Of a stretch of 32,259 bases of DNA, positions 1,679-13,709 are shown one piece after another; the stretch's first letter is position 1, and each line of letters starts with the position of its first letter. This stretch comes from Clostridia bacterium. GTDB taxonomy: Bacteria > UBA6262 > WVXT01 > JAUXBS01. The stretch spans positions 1-32,259 of the forward strand of contig JAUXDE010000004.1 in assembly GCA_030618495.1 (NCBI GenBank). The letters run 5' to 3'. Both the position numbers and the translations under genes were made by a program. Below the pieces are notes generated by a model. That model was not told the origin of the DNA, ran no database searches, and worked only from the letters and a program-made list of their open reading frames with translations.

Positions 1679-1707
1679 TTGACATGTCAGTTTTTTTTGT
1701 ATAAACT
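1679..1707 (+). promoter_or_regulatory. Possible promoter abutting the start of the large secreted protein
   Basis: TTGACA at 1679-1684 is followed by TATAAA at 1700-1705 (15-base spacer) or TAAACT at 1702-1707 (17-base spacer). Transcription would begin at about 1712, right at the ATG pair 1709/1715. No ribosome site precedes either ATG, so the mRNA could be nearly leaderless. Confidence 0.35.
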
Positions 1708-1708
1708 T

Positions 1709-4700
1709 ATGAACATGAGGCATATTTTATTAGTAATCCTTTTTTTATTCACCTTTAACATCCCCCTTCACTCCGCGCAGGGTAACTTCAGTAATTCCGG
1801 AAACGGCTGTTGGCGCTATAGTGAAACCGTCATTATCAACAACACCTCATCCGAACTTATCGATTACCAGGTTTTCATAAGCGCGTCCGCGCTTAATACG
1901 GGAAAACTTGTAAGCGACGGAGTGCTGCAGCCTGACCTTGACGATGTAAGGTTTGCCGACGCGGGCGAACGCGAACTCCCTTACCTGATAGAACCCGATA
2001 CGATTAATCCCCTGGGATTTTATGTAAGAATTCCCGCCATAGAGGTTTCCACCGGGACCACGATATCCTTTTATTACGGCAATTCCTCGGCAACGGCAAC
2101 CAGCAGCGCGTATGACACCTTCCTTTTCTATGATGACTTTGAAAACCTGGACTGCTGGAAAACCAGGAAAGGTTCCTGGGAAATACTTGACGGGACGCTT
2201 CACGGCACGGATGAAAAAATAAATACCCTCAGAAGTTCAAGAAAACGCAACCATTCAAACGTTTGCATCAGCTTCAGGGCGCTGAGCGCGTTAAACAACG
2301 ATATTTCCCTTGAATGGAAGAAGAGCGGCAGAAACAGTTACAGGATTACCTATTCTTCAACAAATCCGAATATAGCAAGGATAACAAGAGCAGGCATTAC
2401 GGGTGGAATTTCCCTCCCTCCCGTAGAAACAAAAAACTGGAGAACATATGAAATCACGGACCTGGGAGGCAGGATTGAAACAACCTGCGGCGCAGCCGCA
2501 TCAATCTTCGTTGACAGCCAACCCTTCGTTTCGGGAGATTATTTTACCCTGAACTCAAACGGCCGGGCCCGCTTCGATGATTTTATAGTCAGGCGCTACA
2601 CACAACCTGAACCGTCCGCCGGCGTGGACAGGGAACTGCTTGTTCTTGCGCCGGGAACCCCGCTGTGCGAAGGTAAACCCAACCCCGAAGGAGTCGTGGA
2701 CGGTACTCCTGAATTCTCCTGGAAGTTCATTTACCGGGGCGATTACGCCCATGAGAGTATGCCACAGTATGCATACAGAATACTGGTATCCACCAGTTCT
2801 ACCGATTTGAACAACAATATCGGAAACGCCTGGGACAGCGGCAAAACCAAAAATCACGAAGAAACTTCCGAATATGCCGGCAAGCGGCTGCTTGCGGGGC
2901 CCACGTATTTCTGGAAGGTGCAGGCCTGGATAACCGGCGCTATAAGTTCACCCTACTCCGTAAACCGGTATTTCAACTACGCATTGAACAGTCCTCCAAA
3001 TGAACCCGCAAACCTTCTATGTGACGGGAAAACTAATCCCGTGAAAATGGTAAAGGTCAAGCCTGAACTTTCCTGGAAGTTTTCCGACCCTGATAAAATG
3101 AGTTCACAGGAGTATTACCGGATTCTGGTATCACTAAATCTCAATGAACTGAATAAAAACGCCGCAGACGTCTGGGACAGCGAAAAAACCCGCTCCGCGG
3201 TCCCGGGGGCGGTTTACAATGGCCTTTCACTCATTCCGGATACAACCTATTATTGGAAGGTAATGACCTGGGACGACGGCAGGTCATCCGGCACTTACAG
3301 CAGCGCCCAGGCGTTTCACTTCATATACGATTCCGCCCTTTATCCTGAAGCCGTAAAGAATCTCACTGCGGTTTCTTTAAAGGGCCGTAAAATACGGTTA
3401 AGGTGGCTTCCTTCCAAATCAAAAGATACGGCAGGATATACGATTCTATGCTCAACGGGAGGGTTTGAGAAGGAATACCCGGTTTACGAAGAGCAGGTTT
3501 CAGCGGAAAGTATTTCATGGACATCACCGCCATTCGACGAGGACGTCATGTACAGTTTTATCGTAAGGACACGTAATGTGGAAGGCTACGAGGAAAGAAA
3601 TGAAAATATCATCACCGCGGCGGCTTTCAAGGAACCTCCCGATATATTGAAAACCCTCGTGCGCGCGCTGCCCAACGGCAAGAAAATCAGCGGAAACAGG
3701 TTCACATTAATGGCGGAAACAGGGAAGAATATACTCAAGAAAACGGAGGAACTTCGTTTTGAGTTCAAGAAACCCCATGACAGGCAATGGACGGGGATAC
3801 AAAATTCCTTCAAGCCGAAAAACAAATCCGGATACGCCTGTTTCTGGGACGCAACTCTTATGGAAGAAGGAAGGTATAACCTGAAAATCCTGTTGGATGA
3901 TAAAAAGGGCAAAAAAAACCTGAGCGTCTCCTGTGTAACCGTTATTGTGGACCACGACAATCCCGACATAGAAGAAACCGTTGACGGTAACCGGGCAAAG
4001 AAAACGGAAAAACTTGACAACAGGATTGACAACAACATAAGACTGTTAAGAAGTTCGGACAAAAACATGACTGAAATTCTTATTACTGCCGGCTCTCTGA
4101 GCAATGACCAGGCAAGCCTGACGGTAATAGACAATCCGGGTAAAATCCCCGAGACACAAACCGATGAAATGGTCCCGGTCGGAGAATACAGGCAGATAAC
4201 CCTTGAGGGTGCCCAACTCAACGAACCGGCAGTAATCAGAATCCCTTACAGGGACGAAGACGGCAACGAAGTGGTTGACGGCACCTATCCTCCCGTACTC
4301 GAATATGATTTAAAACCATTCGTTTACAACAATGACCTTAACCTCTGGGAGATGATTTACGACCATGAAATTGACAGGGAAAACAACCAGGTGGTTTTTA
4401 AAGCAGAGCATTTCTCGCTGTTCTGTCTCATGGGGCGCGGGCTGTCAACCCTGACGCACCCTTTCAACTACCCCAATCCTTTCGGTGATGACGGAACAAC
4501 CTTCATATACGAACTTGCCGAGGATAGTAACGTGACCATAAAAATCTATTCCGTTTCAAACAGGCTCGTGAAAGTTTTACTTGATAACGAACCGAGATTC
4601 ATAGGCGCGCAGGAGGAATCCTGGGACGGAACTGACGACAGTTCACCTCCGGCAAGACTGGCAAACGGGAATTACTTCTACAGGATAATTGTCAATATGT

Positions 4701-4750
4701 CAAGCGGCAAGACACTGCAGAAAACGGAAAAACTCGTAATAATGAGATAG
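1709..4750 (+). CDS. Large secreted multidomain protein with DUF2341, jelly-roll, Fn3-like and C-terminal sorting-type domains
   Basis: This protein of about 1013 residues starts with a signal peptide (MRHILLVILFLFTF, cleavage near HSA). Next come a DUF2341-type domain (about residues 25-120), a concanavalin-like sandwich opening with FYDDFENLDCW, two related Ig/Fn3-like repeats (each with an SWKF strand, Y-RILVS and YYWKV or YFWKV), a further Fn3 domain and an Ig-like domain. A module ending VVFKAEHFSLFCLMG precedes the C-terminal FlgD-Ig/T9SS-type domain (YPNPF, then SWDG and GNYFYRI). Proteins of this design are exported and surface-attached or released. Binding of polysaccharide is plausible but unproven. 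The frame is open back to a TTG at 1679, but that would put residues before the signal peptide; ATG 1709 or 1715 is preferred. Its C-terminus resembles the two other secreted proteins in the window. Confidence 0.8.
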   Translation: MNMRHILLVILFLFTFNIPLHSAQGNFSNSGNGCWRYSETVIINNTSSELIDYQVFISASALNTGKLVSDGVLQPDLDDVRFADAGERELPYLIEPDTINPLGFYVRIPAIEVSTGTTISFYYGNSSATATSSAYDTFLFYDDFENLDCWKTRKGSWEILDGTLHGTDEKINTLRSSRKRNHSNVCISFRALSALNNDISLEWKKSGRNSYRITYSSTNPNIARITRAGITGGISLPPVETKNWRTYEITDLGGRIETTCGAAASIFVDSQPFVSGDYFTLNSNGRARFDDFIVRRYTQPEPSAGVDRELLVLAPGTPLCEGKPNPEGVVDGTPEFSWKFIYRGDYAHESMPQYAYRILVSTSSTDLNNNIGNAWDSGKTKNHEETSEYAGKRLLAGPTYFWKVQAWITGAISSPYSVNRYFNYALNSPPNEPANLLCDGKTNPVKMVKVKPELSWKFSDPDKMSSQEYYRILVSLNLNELNKNAADVWDSEKTRSAVPGAVYNGLSLIPDTTYYWKVMTWDDGRSSGTYSSAQAFHFIYDSALYPEAVKNLTAVSLKGRKIRLRWLPSKSKDTAGYTILCSTGGFEKEYPVYEEQVSAESISWTSPPFDEDVMYSFIVRTRNVEGYEERNENIITAAAFKEPPDILKTLVRALPNGKKISGNRFTLMAETGKNILKKTEELRFEFKKPHDRQWTGIQNSFKPKNKSGYACFWDATLMEEGRYNLKILLDDKKGKKNLSVSCVTVIVDHDNPDIEETVDGNRAKKTEKLDNRIDNNIRLLRSSDKNMTEILITAGSLSNDQASLTVIDNPGKIPETQTDEMVPVGEYRQITLEGAQLNEPAVIRIPYRDEDGNEVVDGTYPPVLEYDLKPFVYNNDLNLWEMIYDHEIDRENNQVVFKAEHFSLFCLMGRGLSTLTHPFNYPNPFGDDGTTFIYELAEDSNVTIKIYSVSNRLVKVLLDNEPRFIGAQEESWDGTDDSSPPARLANGNYFYRIIVNMSSGKTLQKTEKLVIMR

Positions 4751-4772: not shown

Positions 4773-5279
4773 TTAGTAGAAGCCGAATATCCTTCCTTCT
4801 ACATCCTCAAGTTTGATGAAAGGCATTGGTTCGTTGGTTTTCGGGTCAATCCAGTTCCTGCTGTCATTACTTTCATCCCGGTTGTCTCCCAAAACAAAAA
4901 CACTGCCTTCCGGCACAATTTGAGATAAAAAATTATCATCCAGAAACTTTTCCCCTTCTCTTGTATGCTGAACGTACAGTTCCTCAATTTTCTTCCCGTT
5001 TAACCATACCGCTTTATCCACCATCTCCACCCTGTCGCCTTCTATCGCTATCACCCTCTTGACAAGCTTTTTATCGTCTGCCGGCGATTTGAATGCGATT
5101 ATCTCCCCTCTTTTCGGCCTGCCGGTTTTGTACACCAGCTTGTTGACAAAAAGCCGCGTGTTCACATGCAGGGTCGGCTCCATCGAACCGGATGCGATGT
5201 ATATCCATTCAACCACGTGCGTCCTGAGAATATAAGCCAGCGATAATCCTATAATGAGCAATCCCAATAATTTCTTCAT
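4773..5279 (-). CDS. lepB: Signal peptidase I
   Basis: This 168-residue type I signal peptidase cleaves signal peptides from Sec- or Tat-exported proteins on the periplasmic side of the inner membrane. One N-terminal membrane segment (residues 3-18) is followed by SGSMEPTL with the nucleophile Ser32. The Lys general base is Lys74 in KLVKRVIAIEGD. The family box GDNRDESNDSR lies near the C-terminus. It is a short, single-span form without the large E. coli insertion. A GGAGGA ribosome site lies 8 bases before the ATG. It is convergent with the large secreted protein and has its own probable promoter. It is a logical neighbour for a region rich in signal-peptide proteins. Confidence 0.95.
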   Translation of the reverse strand: MKKLLGLLIIGLSLAYILRTHVVEWIYIASGSMEPTLHVNTRLFVNKLVYKTGRPKRGEIIAFKSPADDKKLVKRVIAIEGDRVEMVDKAVWLNGKKIEELYVQHTREGEKFLDDNFLSQIVPEGSVFVLGDNRDESNDSRNWIDPKTNEPMPFIKLEDVEGRIFGFY

Positions 5280-5329
5280 AATAAATTTCCTCCGGTAAAT
5301 TACACAATCAATAATTTTATCTTCATAGA

Positions 5330-5359
5330 ATTATACTAAATTATCGGGCAGGAATACAA
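5330..5359 (-). promoter_or_regulatory. Probable lepB promoter
   Basis: On the minus strand TTGTAT (5359 to 5354) is followed after 18 bases by TATAAT (5335 to 5330). The start would be near 5323, about 45 bases upstream of the lepB ATG. It lies downstream of the hairpin/T-run at 5376-5429, so lepB does not need to be read through that terminator. Confidence 0.5.
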
Positions 5360-5375
5360 CTATTTTTGAAAGGAT

Positions 5376-5429
5376 AAAAAAAGTAGACTCACTTTATCTT
5401 CAGGGGGTTGAAGACAGAAGTAAGTCTAC
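5376..5429 (-). terminator. Intrinsic terminator of the candidate small RNA
   Basis: A 16-pair interrupted stem between 5429-5411 and 5401-5383 is followed on the minus strand by an uninterrupted T7 tract (5382-5376). The reverse direction has no T-run, so the terminator is directional. Confidence 0.7.
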
Positions 5430-5430
5430 A
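5376..5430 (-). ncRNA. Candidate small RNA of about 54 nt, single hairpin with C-rich loop
   Basis: On the minus strand a promoter (5465-5437) is followed at the expected start site by one long imperfect hairpin. GTAGACT/AGTCTAC forms the base (5429-5423 with 5389-5383), with ACTT/AAGT and TCTTC/GAAGA further in. The hairpin is followed directly by seven T (5382-5376). The apical loop reads AACCCCCT, a C-rich loop that could pair with G-rich ribosome-binding sites. The RNA would be almost entirely its own terminator hairpin. No open reading frame is present. It lies between divergent lepB and the C45 hydrolase gene. An alternative is an attenuator in a longer lepB leader, but lepB has a nearer promoter. 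No match to a named RNA family is known to me. Confidence 0.55.
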
Positions 5431-5436
5431 GGGCAT

Positions 5437-5465
5437 ATTATAATTATTATTTTTGAACTTGTAAA
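5437..5465 (-). promoter_or_regulatory. Promoter of the candidate small RNA
   Basis: TTTACA (5465 to 5460) and TATAAT (5442 to 5437) have a spacer of exactly 17 bases, an 11 of 12 match to the sigma-70 consensus. The predicted start at about 5430 coincides with the first base pairs of the hairpin. Confidence 0.65.
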
Positions 5466-5547
5466 GGAAAAAATTAATTTATTTTTAGTTGGACTATAAT
5501 TATGTCAGTACTTGTGGGATATTTATTTATAGCTGATTAAAATAAAA

Positions 5548-5576
5548 TTGACTTGACCAACAATATTAAGTAGGAT
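5548..5576 (+). promoter_or_regulatory. Possible promoter of the C45 hydrolase gene
   Basis: TTGACT at 5548-5553 is followed after 17 bases by TAGGAT at 5571-5576. The start would be near 5583, just upstream of an AAGGAT ribosome site and the ATG at 5597. The -10 match is moderate. Confidence 0.4.
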
Positions 5577-5596
5577 AATGGAAAAAGGATATCATC

Positions 5597-6787
5597 ATGC
5601 CATTGATTAAACTTCTAGGAAAAAAATCCATAGACTCACATAAAAAAGTCCTTCTGACTCCTTATTTTGAGGAGATCGCCTGTTCGGGCAAACCCTATGA
5701 TATGGGTTTCCAGCAGGGCAAACGGTACAGGCGTAAAATAGCAAGAAACGATAAAATTCTTACAGAAACAGAACTCTTCCGGAAATTCGTGCCGCATTTC
5801 ATCCCCCTGCCATTCCTGATCAGCACTGCAAAGAAAGTACTGCCCATATTCGTTCCAGCAATACTGGCGGATGAAAAGGATACCTTCCTACGACTTAACG
5901 GAATTGCAGATGGGGCTGGCGTGAACAGGGAACTGATATTCCTCACCCAGGCGCTTGAAATCATCCTTGACCACATCCCGTACAACATGGGCTGCACCAC
6001 CGTGGCAATCACCCCGGGAAGGTTCATAACCGGGGAACCGGTAATAATCAGGAACTTTGATTTCCTTAATAATTTTCGGACATTTAATATTATAAGGAAG
6101 AGTAAGCCGGAAGGGAAAATACCCAGCATGGAGCTGTCCTTCACGTCAATTGCCGGCTCGCATACGGGCATGAACAGCGAAGGTTTAACACTTTCGTATA
6201 ATTACGGTTATTCAAAGGAGCCCGTGCAGGCAAGAGTCCCCCTGACCTGCCACGTACAGACCGCGCTGGAACGTTTTAAAACAACCCAGCAGGCGGTAAA
6301 TTTTTTCCTCAACAAACCCTTCTCCAGCGGCGCCATACTTACCATTTGCGATTCAAGGGGAAATATGGTCACCCTGGAGGGCAGCCCGACAAAGAAAGCG
6401 TTAAGATATCCTGACAAGAACGGCCTTATAATAAACACCAACCGCTACATGACGGATGAAATGCAGACTGCAAATATCCCCGGGGACGCCCTGTTTGACA
6501 GGAACATGCCTTACGGTCTGGACAAAATCAGGGTTCATGAGTCAAATGAAATACGAGCAAACTCCATTGAAAAACTTCTAAACAGCACCAAGGTATTACC
6601 GGTAGATACTCTGTTCAAGGTGCTGTCCCACCATGGTGATGATAACAATGCATACGATAACTGCACCTGCAGGCACCTGCCCATCTTCCATACGGTTGCT
6701 TCTGCAATACTGTTCCCGAAAAGAAAGACAGCTTACTTCCTAATTGGTTCCCCCTGTAGGAAAAAGTACCATAAGTATTGTTTCTAA
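5597..6787 (+). CDS. C45-family Ntn-hydrolase (penicillin acyltransferase-like)
   Basis: This 396-residue protein has the layout of the peptidase C45 / acyl-CoA:6-aminopenicillanic acid acyltransferase family, whose members self-cleave before a cysteine and hydrolyse or transfer amide-linked acyl groups. The early YDMGFQQGKRYR segment (residues 34-45) is the usual N-terminal signature. MGCTTVAI places the nucleophile at Cys133 after Gly132, and IIRNFDF (N153, D155) is the downstream family motif. No clear signal peptide is present. The natural substrate in most bacteria is unknown; amide or lipid conjugates are possible. The gene is monocistronic, with its stop 4 bases from the convergent histidine kinase stop and no room for a separate terminator. 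An AAGGAT ribosome site precedes the ATG. Confidence 0.82.
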   Translation: MPLIKLLGKKSIDSHKKVLLTPYFEEIACSGKPYDMGFQQGKRYRRKIARNDKILTETELFRKFVPHFIPLPFLISTAKKVLPIFVPAILADEKDTFLRLNGIADGAGVNRELIFLTQALEIILDHIPYNMGCTTVAITPGRFITGEPVIIRNFDFLNNFRTFNIIRKSKPEGKIPSMELSFTSIAGSHTGMNSEGLTLSYNYGYSKEPVQARVPLTCHVQTALERFKTTQQAVNFFLNKPFSSGAILTICDSRGNMVTLEGSPTKKALRYPDKNGLIINTNRYMTDEMQTANIPGDALFDRNMPYGLDKIRVHESNEIRANSIEKLLNSTKVLPVDTLFKVLSHHGDDNNAYDNCTCRHLPIFHTVASAILFPKRKTAYFLIGSPCRKKYHKYCF

Positions 6788-8204: not shown

Positions 8205-10132
8205 TTCTTATCGCGTTCCTCTTTTGCCCTTATTAAATTCTTCCTGGAGCTGACATGGTCCGGGAATAACCTTAAAACCTCTTCCCACAACTCTATTGCC
8301 TCGTCTATCTTGCCGTCGCTGTACTTGAGAAGCGCCTCCTTGTTGATTTCGTCCGCCCTGCTCCCGCATATTTGCTTCAGGGACTCCGCCGCCCGGCTGT
8401 TACCGGGGTTCAGTTTGACGGCATGTTTTAACTTTTCTATGGATTCATCAAAGTTGCCCACATCAAACAGTTCTTTTCCCTTGGAAAAATATTCATCTGA
8501 CAGTTCTTTTTTTGCCTTCTTTAAGAGCCCCACGGCGCTTTCATGCTTCGGGTTGAGCTTAACGGTTGACTCAAGAGTTTTCACTGCCTTATCATAATCC
8601 TGTTTCTCATATTGTTTCAGCCCTTTTTTATAAAGGACATCGGCCTGGCTGTACTCCCGGGCAAGTATTTCAATTTCTTCTGCCTTTCTTGTCTCCTCCT
8701 GTTTTGCCTCCGCCGCCACAATAAAATCCCTGCTTTCCTTGTGTCCCGGTTTTATTAAAAGAACCTTCTTCCACAGTTCAATAGCATCCTTGTACTGTTT
8801 CTTCCTGTAATACTCAAGTCCGTCGTCAAACATGATATCAGCCATTTTTTGTTTTTCGGTAACAATCCTATCCTTGAGCTTTTCGATATAATCCTCTGCC
8901 TGGGGGTGACCCGGGAAAAGGGAAAGTATGTTCTCAAACTCCTCCTTTGACTCCAGGAGTTTGTTCTCCTCAAGGTATCTTCGCCCCTTTTCAAGGTACA
9001 ATTCAACCTTTATATCCTTCACCGTTGAAGCAATCATCCCCAGGTATTTCTTCGCATCCTCATGGTTCGGGTCAAGCACCAGCACATTGTTAAACAACTT
9101 GTTCGCTCTTACGTAATCTTTTCTCCCGTAATACTTCTTTCCCCTGAGGAAATACTTATCTATCTTTTCAAAAATCAATCCTCTTTCAAACCGGTTTCCA
9201 AAACGGTAACTCAGGCTGAACCTGTGGGCCTCCCCGAGAAAACCGTAAGGCGTATAGGCATAGTCAACATCGACAATATCGCTTATAAATCCCATGCCGC
9301 ACCTCAGCCCCTCGTCAAGGTCATACTGGGCAGGTTTTATTTTGTAACCCGCCCTGAGGGCAAACAGATTGCTAATCCTGTATTCACAGCCCACGTTCAT
9401 GCTGATTCTATTATCGTTCGGCAGGTTGAAATCAAGAGCCACCAGGAGATCATCGCCTAATAACCTTGAGGAAAAACCCAGCCTGTAATTCAAGGGCAGA
9501 GGATAGCCGGCAGACGAATGGTTCAACTCAGTTCCCAGGTTCTGCATACTGAACCCGATATTGAACTTTTCCCCGCTTAATTTATAAAGAACGCCCGCAT
9601 CAAGAGCAAACACAACGGCCTGACTCTCATGAAGTGTTTCCCCTATGTACTTTACATTGACCCCCAGGTGGAATGTCCTCCCCTTTTCCCTGTCCAAAGT
9701 TACCTTGTGCGCGTATGTAAGAGCAATTGCCGTATCAGACACGCCTATATTTCCAATGGAAGCTCCATCGTTTCCATATCCCGCAATATCGTTTTTTGAA
9801 AGGCTTGTAATACTGAGCCCGAACGCCCCCGATTTCTTAACAGGCATCACTCCCGAAAGGAAACCGAAACTCATACCACCGAGCCACTGAACGAGCATCC
9901 CCGATACCTCCCACCGGTTTAACTGAGACAACCCCGAAGGATTCCAGTAAAAAGCGCTGGCGTCATCGCTCACGGCGACAAAAGCCTCCCCCATACCTAT
10001 CGCCCTGGGACCCACCCCTAACTTAAGGAAGTTCAGGCCCGTACCGCCCGTTTCCACCGAATAAGCGGTTCCATATATAAAAGGAAACAACAGACAAACT
10101 ATAATAATAAATTTCTTCATTGACATAATCAT
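8201..10132 (-). CDS. PorV/PorQ-family outer-membrane barrel fused to TPR repeats
   Basis: This is a 643-residue protein. After a signal peptide (KKFIIIVCLLFPFIYGTAYS) comes a PorV/PorQ (UPF0164-like) beta-barrel, residues about 30-312. It has the family signature GPRAIGMGEAFVAVSDDA...YWNPSGL (41-68) and ends in strands such as HRFSLSYRFG. In Bacteroidota, PorV shuttles substrates of type IX secretion at the outer membrane; that role here is by homology. Residues about 325-643 are a TPR array (for example RANKLFNNVLVLDPNHEDA and DEAIELWEEVLRLFPDH) that probably faces the periplasm and binds partners. The fusion is longer than ordinary PorV. Four-base overlaps join it to the secreted-protein gene upstream and the kinase downstream. 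The start is probably the overlapping ATG at 10132; in-frame ATGs follow within 12 bases. Confidence 0.85.
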   Translation of the reverse strand: MIMSMKKFIIIVCLLFPFIYGTAYSVETGGTGLNFLKLGVGPRAIGMGEAFVAVSDDASAFYWNPSGLSQLNRWEVSGMLVQWLGGMSFGFLSGVMPVKKSGAFGLSITSLSKNDIAGYGNDGASIGNIGVSDTAIALTYAHKVTLDREKGRTFHLGVNVKYIGETLHESQAVVFALDAGVLYKLSGEKFNIGFSMQNLGTELNHSSAGYPLPLNYRLGFSSRLLGDDLLVALDFNLPNDNRISMNVGCEYRISNLFALRAGYKIKPAQYDLDEGLRCGMGFISDIVDVDYAYTPYGFLGEAHRFSLSYRFGNRFERGLIFEKIDKYFLRGKKYYGRKDYVRANKLFNNVLVLDPNHEDAKKYLGMIASTVKDIKVELYLEKGRRYLEENKLLESKEEFENILSLFPGHPQAEDYIEKLKDRIVTEKQKMADIMFDDGLEYYRKKQYKDAIELWKKVLLIKPGHKESRDFIVAAEAKQEETRKAEEIEILAREYSQADVLYKKGLKQYEKQDYDKAVKTLESTVKLNPKHESAVGLLKKAKKELSDEYFSKGKELFDVGNFDESIEKLKHAVKLNPGNSRAAESLKQICGSRADEINKEALLKYSDGKIDEAIELWEEVLRLFPDHVSSRKNLIRAKEERDKK

Positions 10133-11484
10133 TTAATTATAACCAGCTGACCGGACTTGCTCTTCTCGGCATTAAATATGTAGTACAGGTACACCCCGCT
10201 TGAAAACTTATCCACGTCAAGCGTATCATTAGAACCGTCCCCGTCAACTTCTTCTATGGTCTGGACAAGTTCCCCCGATAAGGTGTATACCTTAATCGTT
10301 GCCTGTGACGATAAACCTGTAAATTTAATCTCCGTATGATTTTCCGGGCTATTTGCTATAAAAGGAACGGGATACGCGTAAGCGCCTGATAAATTGGTCT
10401 CATTAACGCCCATGAGCGTATATATAGAAAAATGATTGACCTTTGCGGTGACTGTATTTGCCGATGTATCGACCACGGAACCCGGTATTTTTACCCATAT
10501 ACTGTCATCCTCGTTTAGCCAGTATATTGCCAGGGTTTCCTCCCTCACGGGAGGCGATGTTCCTTTTACATAATTGCCATCCATCTTATACGGAATTGTT
10601 AACTCAACATCAGAAGAAAAATCATCGTGGGAAAGCGCCAGCGGATTGCCTTTATAAACCTTGATGTCCCTCAGGGTGCTGTCAACAGGCATAAAAAACC
10701 TGTCATCACTGTTATCAGCCTTGATATTAGCGGCAATTATCTGTGAAGTAAAAGCAGGATTCGTATCAATAACAATATAATAACTATTATTACCGAACGG
10801 AAACGGAGGTAATTTTATTTTTGTTTTACCGTCATTGGCGGTAATCGTATGACTACTAGTATTCATTATGGTTAAAAACTCATATGCCCTATAATACCCA
10901 TTGAAATCCCCTCCCGCTCCTATCTCATCCCAGTCATATCCCTGTTCATCGCTAAGTGATACTGTTGCCGTGGGAACACCCACATCCAACCACCACCCGT
11001 ATCCGTCCGTTTGACTTGTATTGGTACTTTCCACACATATCCAGTATGTTGCTCCACTGATTAATTTTGGAGGATTATCCAGGAAAAATTCATGCCAGTG
11101 ATATGTTGTTGTACTGACATTTGCAGTAATTGAATAAAGTGCCGGGGTGGGTTTTGAATCAGGTCTCAAAAAACCATTATCGTTTCTGATTTCCACCGTA
11201 ATATAATCAGTTGTTGATTCAACATTTCTTATCCGTAACTCAACCTTTCCTAAATAGAAATCCTTGGGAGCAACAAAATTCTGGGCAACCCAGCCATAAG
11301 TAGTATTTGCAACTCCATACCAAATAGATATTCCTCCGCTGCTTGTACCAACATGATATTGATGAGAAGATATGGGTGTGGTATATGCTTGCCCGCCGTG
11401 GTCAACCGCAAGAACATTAGAAGTGAACAATAGACATGATAATGAAAGAAATAATATTATTTTAATATAATTTAACCTTAACAT
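10129..11484 (-). CDS. Secreted protein with jelly-roll domain and C-terminal FlgD-Ig-type sorting domain
   Basis: This is a 451-residue protein from ATG 11484. The frame is open to 11616, but the signal peptide (MLRLNYIKIILFLSLSCLLF, cleavage after NVLA) and the promoter at 11500-11528 both fix the shorter start. Residues about 30-200 form a beta-sandwich like choice-of-anchor R domains (WVAQNFVAP, then SGATYWICVEST). A middle module follows, containing LAIYWLNEDDSIW and VTAKVNHFSIYTLMG. The last 85 residues are a FlgD-Ig/T9SS-like domain (AYPVPF, TIKVYTLSGELV, SSGVYLYYIF). It is probably displayed on or released from the outer surface. It is first in an operon with the PorV-TPR gene, overlapping by 4 bases, which suggests a cargo/exporter pair. 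Confidence 0.8.
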   Translation of the reverse strand: MLRLNYIKIILFLSLSCLLFTSNVLAVDHGGQAYTTPISSHQYHVGTSSGGISIWYGVANTTYGWVAQNFVAPKDFYLGKVELRIRNVESTTDYITVEIRNDNGFLRPDSKPTPALYSITANVSTTTYHWHEFFLDNPPKLISGATYWICVESTNTSQTDGYGWWLDVGVPTATVSLSDEQGYDWDEIGAGGDFNGYYRAYEFLTIMNTSSHTITANDGKTKIKLPPFPFGNNSYYIVIDTNPAFTSQIIAANIKADNSDDRFFMPVDSTLRDIKVYKGNPLALSHDDFSSDVELTIPYKMDGNYVKGTSPPVREETLAIYWLNEDDSIWVKIPGSVVDTSANTVTAKVNHFSIYTLMGVNETNLSGAYAYPVPFIANSPENHTEIKFTGLSSQATIKVYTLSGELVQTIEEVDGDGSNDTLDVDKFSSGVYLYYIFNAEKSKSGQLVIIK

Positions 11485-11499
11485 TTTAAACCCTGGAGA

Positions 11500-11528
11500 A
11501 TTATACAACAGTTTTAACCAGGTAGCAA
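11500..11528 (-). promoter_or_regulatory. Promoter of the left secreted-protein/PorV/kinase operon
   Basis: On the minus strand TTGCTA (11528 to 11523) and TATAAT (11505 to 11500) are 17 bases apart. The predicted start near 11493 lies just before the AGGG site and ATG at 11484, which rules out the longer in-frame start at 11616. Confidence 0.6.
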
Positions 11529-11754
11529 GGATTTTTTTTAAAACCTTTCCCCGCACTGCCGGAAAGCCAGAAAAAATGTGAGGGTTCTTATTTTTATATG
11601 AACCTTCCAGAAACATATAATACCAAGAATATCAGTGTTTTTCAGGTTTTTCATGAAACATTTAAAACAACAGATTTTGTCACTAATGTTACAAAATTAT
11701 TACTGAATATGAACTATATAGCGACGATAAACGAAATATTTACGAAAATAATAC

Positions 11755-11830: not shown

Positions 11831-11931
11831 TTTATCCGATAATAGCAAACCATTCCGAAAGGGTGGGACGCAAAGCCACGGAACTAAATCCCGGGAAACC
11901 GGGACAAGCAAGCCGGGTTACCGAAGATAAG
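11831..11931 (+). promoter_or_regulatory. Class I cyclic-di-GMP riboswitch (GEMM-I) aptamer
   Basis: The conserved GEMM-I core is present. AGCAAACC (11844-11851) leads into a hairpin with a GAAA tetraloop (11857-11860), followed by GTGGGACGCAAAGCC (11863-11877), a second hairpin CCCGG-GAAA-CCGGG (11890-11902), and GGGTTACCG (11915-11923). TTATC (11832-11836) can pair with GATAA (11926-11930) to close the aptamer. The ligand-contacting position G20 of the Vibrio Vc2 aptamer aligns with G11845, as in c-di-GMP-selective members; cGAMP-selective variants carry A there. The 3' part of the aptamer is reused as the 5' arm of the terminator, so ligand binding should favour read-through (ON switch). 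Alignment was made by eye. Confidence 0.93.
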
Positions 11932-11970
11932 ATTATTGTTAATTCTTATTTGTGGTAACCCGGTTTTTTT
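11913..11970 (+). terminator. Riboswitch expression platform: intrinsic terminator
   Basis: CCGGGTTACC (11913-11922) is perfectly complementary to GGTAACCCGG (11954-11963). An inner ATAAGA/TCTTAT pairing extends the stem, and T7 follows (11964-11970). The 5' arm is the 3' strand of the c-di-GMP aptamer, so the two folds exclude each other. The ribosome site GGAGG begins directly after the T-run. Confidence 0.9.
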
Positions 11971-11981
11971 GGAGGCTTGAA

Positions 11982-13709
11982 ATGAAAATTAAAAGAATAT
12001 TAATACTTAGTTTATTCTTCATGATTTCAGGTCTACTTATATACCCGCTTAATGCTGAATTCGTTGTTGTCGTGGAACCCGAAGATGAAGTCACCGTGGT
12101 TTTTGACAACGATATTCCTGCTCCCCCCCCTGTCGAAGAACCTCCCGCTGAAGAACCCACCGTTGAAGAGCCTGCAGAAGTCCCCGGAACTGATACCGTG
12201 GATTTGACTGTAGATGACACTAATTCAAACATTGTATACAAGAAGCTGGTTTTTAACCTCAGTGATTACATTTCCGAGAACACAACGATTATAGAAGGCA
12301 GGATCTGGTTCAGCCGCAGTAAGAACGACACCGACAAATACTACGAACAGGCAAGATTATGGATCAAGCAGCTGCCCAAGAAGAATAAAGAATCAATGAA
12401 AGTTTCTTTAAAGAAGAAATGGAGCAAACCATACACGTCTAACTGCAAGAAGGGCGGATACGAATGGAATGTTACGGATGAACTAATAGGCCTAATAACT
12501 GACGGCAATGATAGTTTTGAAATTAACGTTAAATACTATAACAAGGAATCATTAAGTAAATCATTCTTATTGATTACTTATGAAAACGAAGAATCCAGTG
12601 AAACCGGCGCCCTGATTAGCGCATCCGTTGATGTTTATCCAAAAACCATTAACCTCAAGAGCAGGCGTTCATGGATCAAAGCCCATATAGAACTTCCTGA
12701 AGAATACGATGCGAACGAAATAGACATTTCAAGTGTAAAGATCACAGAAATCGACGGTTCACAGATAGAGGCAATATCCATCGCTAACGGATATAAAAAG
12801 GCCTCAGGTTTAATGGTCCGGTTCCCCAGAGAAGAGCTAAAGAAAGTCCTTTCACCGGCAGTAAATGTATCCATAACCGTTGCCGGCAGTCTTGCCAGTG
12901 GAGAAAAATTCGTTGGCAAAACGCTGGTAAATGTTATAGAGCCGGGAATAAATAAGCTGATATCGGTAAGCGGCGGCGGAGTCGGTAATCTCAAGAATGC
13001 GAATATTAACATCCCGCTGGGAGCCCTTGACGAAGCAACGGAAATCACCATAGCTACAGATGAAGAAACTGAGGAAGAGGATTCCGATGAAGATCAGGAT
13101 TCAGACAATGCCTTGGATGAACAGGAACTTGAAGGAATTGGTAAGGGCTGTCACTTCGGCCCCGAAGGAACACAGTTTAATAAGCCGGTTCTTATAACTC
13201 TTTATTATGACGATATAGAAGGGAATGATTCCCGGAATTTGAATATTTACTATTGGAACACAGCGCTTAGGTTATGGGAAGTTCTCGCTAATTCTGAAGT
13301 TGATACCGCGAACAATTCAGTAAGCGCCGAAGTGAAACATTTTTCACTGTACCGGGTACTTTCAACCAAAGCGGCCGAATCCAACGAAGACTATCTTGGT
13401 TCATCCTTTAGGCTGGGCGAGGTATACTGCTATCCCAGCCCGGCAAGAGAAGGAATAGACCCCACGTTTCATGTTGAAGCCGACAACGCAAATGAAATTC
13501 AAATAAGGATCTTTAATGTTGCCGGAAATGAAGTTAATGCAATCCTTCTCGATGGTTCCAATATTGTCTACAAGAATTCAATACCGGCATATGAGTATGT
13601 CTGGAACACAGCAGGTGTTGCCTCGGGTGTTTATGTATACTCCGTTACGGCAGTAAAAGAAGGCCATCAGTCTCTGCGGGTAATCAAGAAAATGGGGATT
13701 GTAAAATGA
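11982..13709 (+). CDS. c-di-GMP-regulated secreted surface protein with C-terminal sorting-type domain
   Basis: This is a 575-residue protein from ATG 11982, behind GGAGG with a 6-base gap. The in-frame GTG at 11952 lies inside the terminator hairpin and is not the start. A signal peptide (MKIKRILILSLFFMISGLLI, cleavage near NAE) is followed by a short acidic, proline-rich linker (residues about 38-65) and a DNRLRE-like beta domain (LVFNLSDYISENTTIIEGRI). An Ig-like part follows, then a ZU5-like module (NINIPLGALDEATEITI, with an acidic insert, then FGPEGTQFNKPVLITLYY). A module ending AEVKHFSLYRVL precedes the C-terminal FlgD-Ig-like domain (CYPSPAR, GVYVYSVTAV). The riboswitch predicts expression when c-di-GMP is high, the usual signal for attachment or matrix building, so adhesin or matrix protein is a reasonable guess. 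It overlaps the PorV-like gene by 4 bases. Confidence 0.85.
   Translation: MKIKRILILSLFFMISGLLIYPLNAEFVVVVEPEDEVTVVFDNDIPAPPPVEEPPAEEPTVEEPAEVPGTDTVDLTVDDTNSNIVYKKLVFNLSDYISENTTIIEGRIWFSRSKNDTDKYYEQARLWIKQLPKKNKESMKVSLKKKWSKPYTSNCKKGGYEWNVTDELIGLITDGNDSFEINVKYYNKESLSKSFLLITYENEESSETGALISASVDVYPKTINLKSRRSWIKAHIELPEEYDANEIDISSVKITEIDGSQIEAISIANGYKKASGLMVRFPREELKKVLSPAVNVSITVAGSLASGEKFVGKTLVNVIEPGINKLISVSGGGVGNLKNANINIPLGALDEATEITIATDEETEEEDSDEDQDSDNALDEQELEGIGKGCHFGPEGTQFNKPVLITLYYDDIEGNDSRNLNIYYWNTALRLWEVLANSEVDTANNSVSAEVKHFSLYRVLSTKAAESNEDYLGSSFRLGEVYCYPSPAREGIDPTFHVEADNANEIQIRIFNVAGNEVNAILLDGSNIVYKNSIPAYEYVWNTAGVASGVYVYSVTAVKEGHQSLRVIKKMGIVK

Follow-up and report, generated by a model that had tools for sequence, protein, structure and literature searches.

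A conserved, C-rich-loop hairpin beside lepB is very likely a small-RNA gene in an uncultured bacterial genus

The minus strand at positions 5465-5376 of the window, the 32,259-nt stretch of DNA analysed here, very likely carries a real, conserved, and previously uncatalogued small-RNA gene, judging from sequence features kept in two species. The best overall explanation for this element, and probably the correct one, is a stand-alone, Hfq-free small RNA of ~54 nt, made solely of an intrinsic-terminator hairpin, that blocks G-rich mRNA leaders. In the proposed mechanism, transcription would initiate from the promoter at the hairpin's first base and stop at the hairpin with its U-tract, two steps for which the conserved anatomy argues strongly. 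The rigid loop, (A)ACCCCCU, would then be offered in trans to AGGGGG-type Shine-Dalgarno sequences or G-rich leaders of a few mRNAs, where by analogy with RepG and sX13 its pairing would block ribosome binding and turn the target genes down. The conserved candidate target is the gene for a GAF-PAS signalling protein.

The window corresponds to contig C95 of assembly G000 (1.69 Mb, 98% complete). G001, the one further genome of the genus compared, is 76% complete and has the element at locus L003. This relative (L003/L056, JAUXBS010000082.1) is labelled 'Clostridia bacterium' but is placed in a phylum represented here by six genomes, and the label may be misassigned. In the window, the element lies in a 317-bp gap (5280-5596) between lepB, which encodes signal peptidase I (Peptidase_S26; 4773-5279, minus strand; PF10502, E 3.6e-43), and a gene for a C45/AAT-type hydrolase of the acyl-CoA:6-APA acyltransferase family (5597-6787, plus strand; PF03417, E 9.8e-18). 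Both genes diverge from the gap, with lepB downstream of the RNA and on the same strand. The earlier note had proposed an undescribed small RNA here whose promoter and terminator no ORF explains, and indeed the gap holds no ORF of at least 80 aa; a short ATG frame in the G001 element is absent from the window in the sequences read. The hydrolase gene has a promoter-like TTGACT-17-TAGGAT of its own at 5548-5576 (plus strand), in one of the better conserved intergenic stretches (42 of 56 aligned bases). Elsewhere in the window, a c-di-GMP-I riboswitch (RF01051, 70.4 bits) occupies 11834-11925 (plus strand), just 5' of the ORF at 11952-13709. The large proteins encoded at 1679-4750, 10129-11616, and 11952-13709 have C-terminal tails that are alike (Y-x-x-P-x-P ... 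G-x-Y-x-Y) and look like secreted-protein sorting domains, and the first of them also contains DUF2341, Ig, and fn3 domains.

The predicted RNA has a sigma-70-type promoter, TTTACA-17-TATAAT, at 5465-5437 (minus strand), with TTTACA at 5465-5460 and TATAAT at 5442-5437. It matches the consensus at 11 of 12 positions and so outscores the other promoter-like sites in 3.5 kb, which reach 9/12. The hairpin, GUAGACUUACUUCUGUCUUCAACCCCCUGAAGAUAAAGUGAGUCUAC, follows at 5429-5383 (47 nt, minus strand) and starts 7-8 nt past the -10 hexamer (7 nt in G001), so that transcription can begin at the hairpin's first base, as had been suggested from the window alone. A T7 tract at 5382-5376 (minus strand), which is T6 in the G001 alignment, completes the intrinsic terminator and brings the predicted transcript to 54 nt; both the tract and the length agree with the original description. 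That description gave the hairpin 16 pairs, and here the structure turned out to be stronger than stated: the 54-nt RNA folds with 20 pairs as a single sequence (-25.5 kcal/mol, z -8.95, with no shuffle equally good), and 18 pairs make up the two-species consensus structure. Its apical loop is ACCCCC, which becomes AACCCCCU when the closing A-U pair opens. The element is present in a single copy in the genome.

In G001, the element is found at the same locus, between lepB and a hydrolase ortholog that is 79% identical, with a hairpin of equal length and a TTGACA-17-TATAAT promoter that matches the consensus at 12 of 12 positions (L003 630-602). Between the species, 14 of the 47 hairpin positions have changed. 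Eleven of these substitutions, all transitions, fall in paired columns, and nonetheless 18/18 consensus pairs are retained in both species, two of them through changes on both sides; the remaining three are transversions, each at an unpaired column. If mutation were unconstrained, all 18 pairs would be kept with a probability of 0.00002-0.002 at transition biases of 1-8; the probability is 0.013 when each stem change is forced to be a transition. A shuffle control that counts pairs gave 124/500 and is uninformative with only two sequences. The check for covariation in relatives thus recovered the same hairpin, and as judged by this comparison the element is beyond chance, with an identical architecture kept at the same locus. 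Between the two species, UCAACCCCCUG is unchanged (5411-5401, minus strand; alignment columns 19-29). This segment comprises the apical C-rich loop and its closing pairs and is the proposed seed. C-rich-loop regulators are recognised by an accessible and conserved loop with at least four C's on a stable stem, and the invariant ACCCCC presents such a loop.

The loop (A)ACCCCCU complements AGGGGG(U)(U), which bears out the earlier proposal that it could pair with G-rich Shine-Dalgarno sequences for the AGGGGG type; the common GGAGG pairs with a mismatch. The pattern AGGGGG-N4-11-ATG is modestly commoner than its reversed-pattern control in G001 (100 vs 67) but shows no excess in G000 (89 vs 93), and most of its occurrences sit inside ORFs. 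Because there is no genome-wide excess in G000, action of the loop on AGGGGG-type Shine-Dalgarno sites, suggested by analogy, is plausible only. The target search covered the listed sites and short stretches around them, with the G001 sites read in part. About nine AGGGGG sites are at genuine gene starts in G000, those of genes for the GAF-PAS protein, two response regulators, lipoprotein-like proteins, an accD-like protein, a mannose-1-phosphate guanylyltransferase-like protein, and others; these names come from N-terminal sequence, and the GAF-PAS protein alone was domain-scanned. Duplexes of the loop with eight computed sites have energies of -12.9 to -17.0 kcal/mol, and about -13 kcal/mol at the sites of the GAF-PAS orthologs. 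The leader of the GAF-PAS gene is AGGGGGAAGTAATG, and its start reads AGGGGGAAGT(A)ATG in both genomes. Among the sites read in G001, where ortholog starts were compared for three candidates (the second response regulator being left out), the GAF-PAS gene is the one that keeps AGGGGG; the mannose-1-phosphate guanylyltransferase ortholog has AGGAGAG instead, and one response-regulator ortholog likewise lacks the G-run. Prediction with the loop as seed therefore yielded one site kept in both species but no enrichment in G000. The full 10-mer loop complement, CAGGGGGTTG, has no start-site occurrence among the forward-strand sites read; these look coding and so were not counted as targets.

A search for Hfq (PF17209) found none in the six phylum genomes (G000-G005), while control genomes match, and small RNAs in these genomes would need another helper or none. 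The lack of a detectable Hfq is consistent with a mechanism driven by the loop itself. By analogy with characterised small RNAs, we somewhat favour pairing of the C-rich loop with G-rich mRNAs as that mechanism. Its fullest form, a minimal riboregulator of a rare Hfq-less phylum in which one terminator hairpin serves as transcript, seed, and end signal and competes with the 16S anti-Shine-Dalgarno for AGGGGG-type mRNAs, including those for the GAF-PAS protein and response regulators, is offered tentatively and may well be wrong in some part. The invariance of the loop and its flanks while the stem drifts is also how a protein site would look, and the RNA might act by binding a protein, as a loop-binding translational regulator or a ligand of RNA polymerase, instead of by base-pairing. 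We consider this unlikely, as the C5 loops of characterised small RNAs bind G-rich mRNAs by base-pairing (PMC3771888, PMC8295292) and the element matches neither 6S RNA nor any other Rfam family.

In both genomes, the first gene past the element on its strand is lepB, which begins ~100 nt after the terminator in the window. This position raises the alternative of a lepB leader in which transcription from the upstream promoter usually stops at the hairpin and some C-loop-binding factor permits read-through. Known intrinsic-terminator attenuators share this order of promoter, terminator hairpin, and same-strand gene. However, they act through a leader that can form mutually exclusive terminator and antiterminator structures and is the sole route to the gene, an arrangement that is not apparent in the sequence here. 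Because the first transcribed base already belongs to the hairpin, there is no upstream leader to act as a sensor and nothing left to form an antiterminator, and no alternative structure was seen. The lepB leader past the hairpin is poorly conserved (50/94 aligned bases, with many gaps), and a conserved G-rich stretch that could pair with the loop was not seen in it. Furthermore, the gene has a promoter-like site of its own past the terminator in each genome. In the window this is the candidate TTGTAT-18-TATAAT at 5359-5330 (minus strand), a 9/12 match found by eye, with its first hexamer under the scan threshold; in G001 it is TTGATT-17-TATAAT with the TG of an extended -10 (L003 460-432), between the terminator and lepB. 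With these sites in both genomes, an independent small RNA appears the better reading, and attenuation of lepB is improbable. In both species the element has, as sequence features, the general marks of a small RNA: its own promoter, its own intrinsic terminator, and no coding potential. We hold it highly probable that the element is a real, independent small RNA.

The two strands of the hairpin are not equivalent, and G-U pairs are gained or lost through many of the substitutions. The minus-strand RNA contains two G-U pairs in the window and five in G001, each of which is an A-C mismatch on the plus strand, so that the plus strand retains 16/18 pairs in the window and 13/18 in G001. The G001 fold is no better than shuffles on the plus strand (z 0.25) but clearly better on the minus strand (z -4.7), which makes a plus-strand RNA the weaker reading. 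The strand-specific G-U pairs and the unfolded plus strand in G001 lead us to infer that selection acted on the RNA made from the promoter described above and not on a DNA palindrome. Although the gap is AT-rich, a setting where promoter-like sites occur by chance (six found vs 5.7 expected in 3.5 kb), a DNA palindrome such as an operator, insertion scar, or repeat element, or a chance promoter and terminator with no RNA function, is very improbable given the single copy, the reliance of pairing on one-strand-only G-U pairs, the consensus or near-consensus promoter of both species, and the invariant loop.

The small RNA favoured here appears to be confined to its genus. A model search found the element in G000 and G001 only among the six genomes of the phylum, and a search of 386 genomes of wider kinship likewise returned just the two genus members; no homologue outside the genus was found in either set. 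Exact-pattern matches in Mariniphaga (L057), a JZ-2 bin (L058), and a viral contig (L075) lack a matching stem and were set aside as chance, those in L057 and L058 also overlapping long reading frames, and weak blastn matches in other phyla covered short stretches only. A covariance search of Rfam 15 at the gathering score matched the element to no family, 6S included, in keeping with the original view of the RNA as undescribed; sub-threshold matches were eukaryotic or far under the cut-off. If expressed, the element would be an independent small RNA of very short and simple form, and a further origin of the C-rich-loop strategy, in an uncultured lineage with no detectable Hfq. The two species together provide a clean covariation signal in a phylum from which six genomes were compared, and the element opens no new mechanism.

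By its sequence features, the element would be a genus-restricted addition to the C-rich-loop small RNAs, a functional kind of the RepG and sX13 type and not a homology family. Helicobacter pylori, the host of RepG (HPnc5490), is regarded as lacking Hfq. RepG, as predicted for the element, is an independent small RNA from an intergenic region, and the element's loop would be used as that of RepG is: the C/U-rich terminator loop of RepG suffices for repression (PMC8295292). However, RepG contains two or more stem-loops, and its proven target carries a homopolymeric G-repeat, whereas the element has one hairpin and a candidate target, and no sequence relationship between the two was found. In sX13 of Xanthomonas, C-rich loops with 4C and 5C motifs act independently of Hfq on G-rich motifs near translation starts, and one loop carries UCCCCCU, which is common to RepG (PMC3771888). 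The element shares the C-rich apical loop and may act on G-rich motifs in a like manner, but sX13 is 115 nt long, folds into three stems, leaves its 5' end unstructured, and is not homologous by any search run. The 6C RNA is likewise stable and structured, and its loops are C-rich (PMC6582537); it differs in having three helices and two such loops and is known from actinobacteria. The element has no Rfam covariance match. Compared with RepG and sX13, the element is more minimal, with a single hairpin that would serve as body, seed, and terminator.
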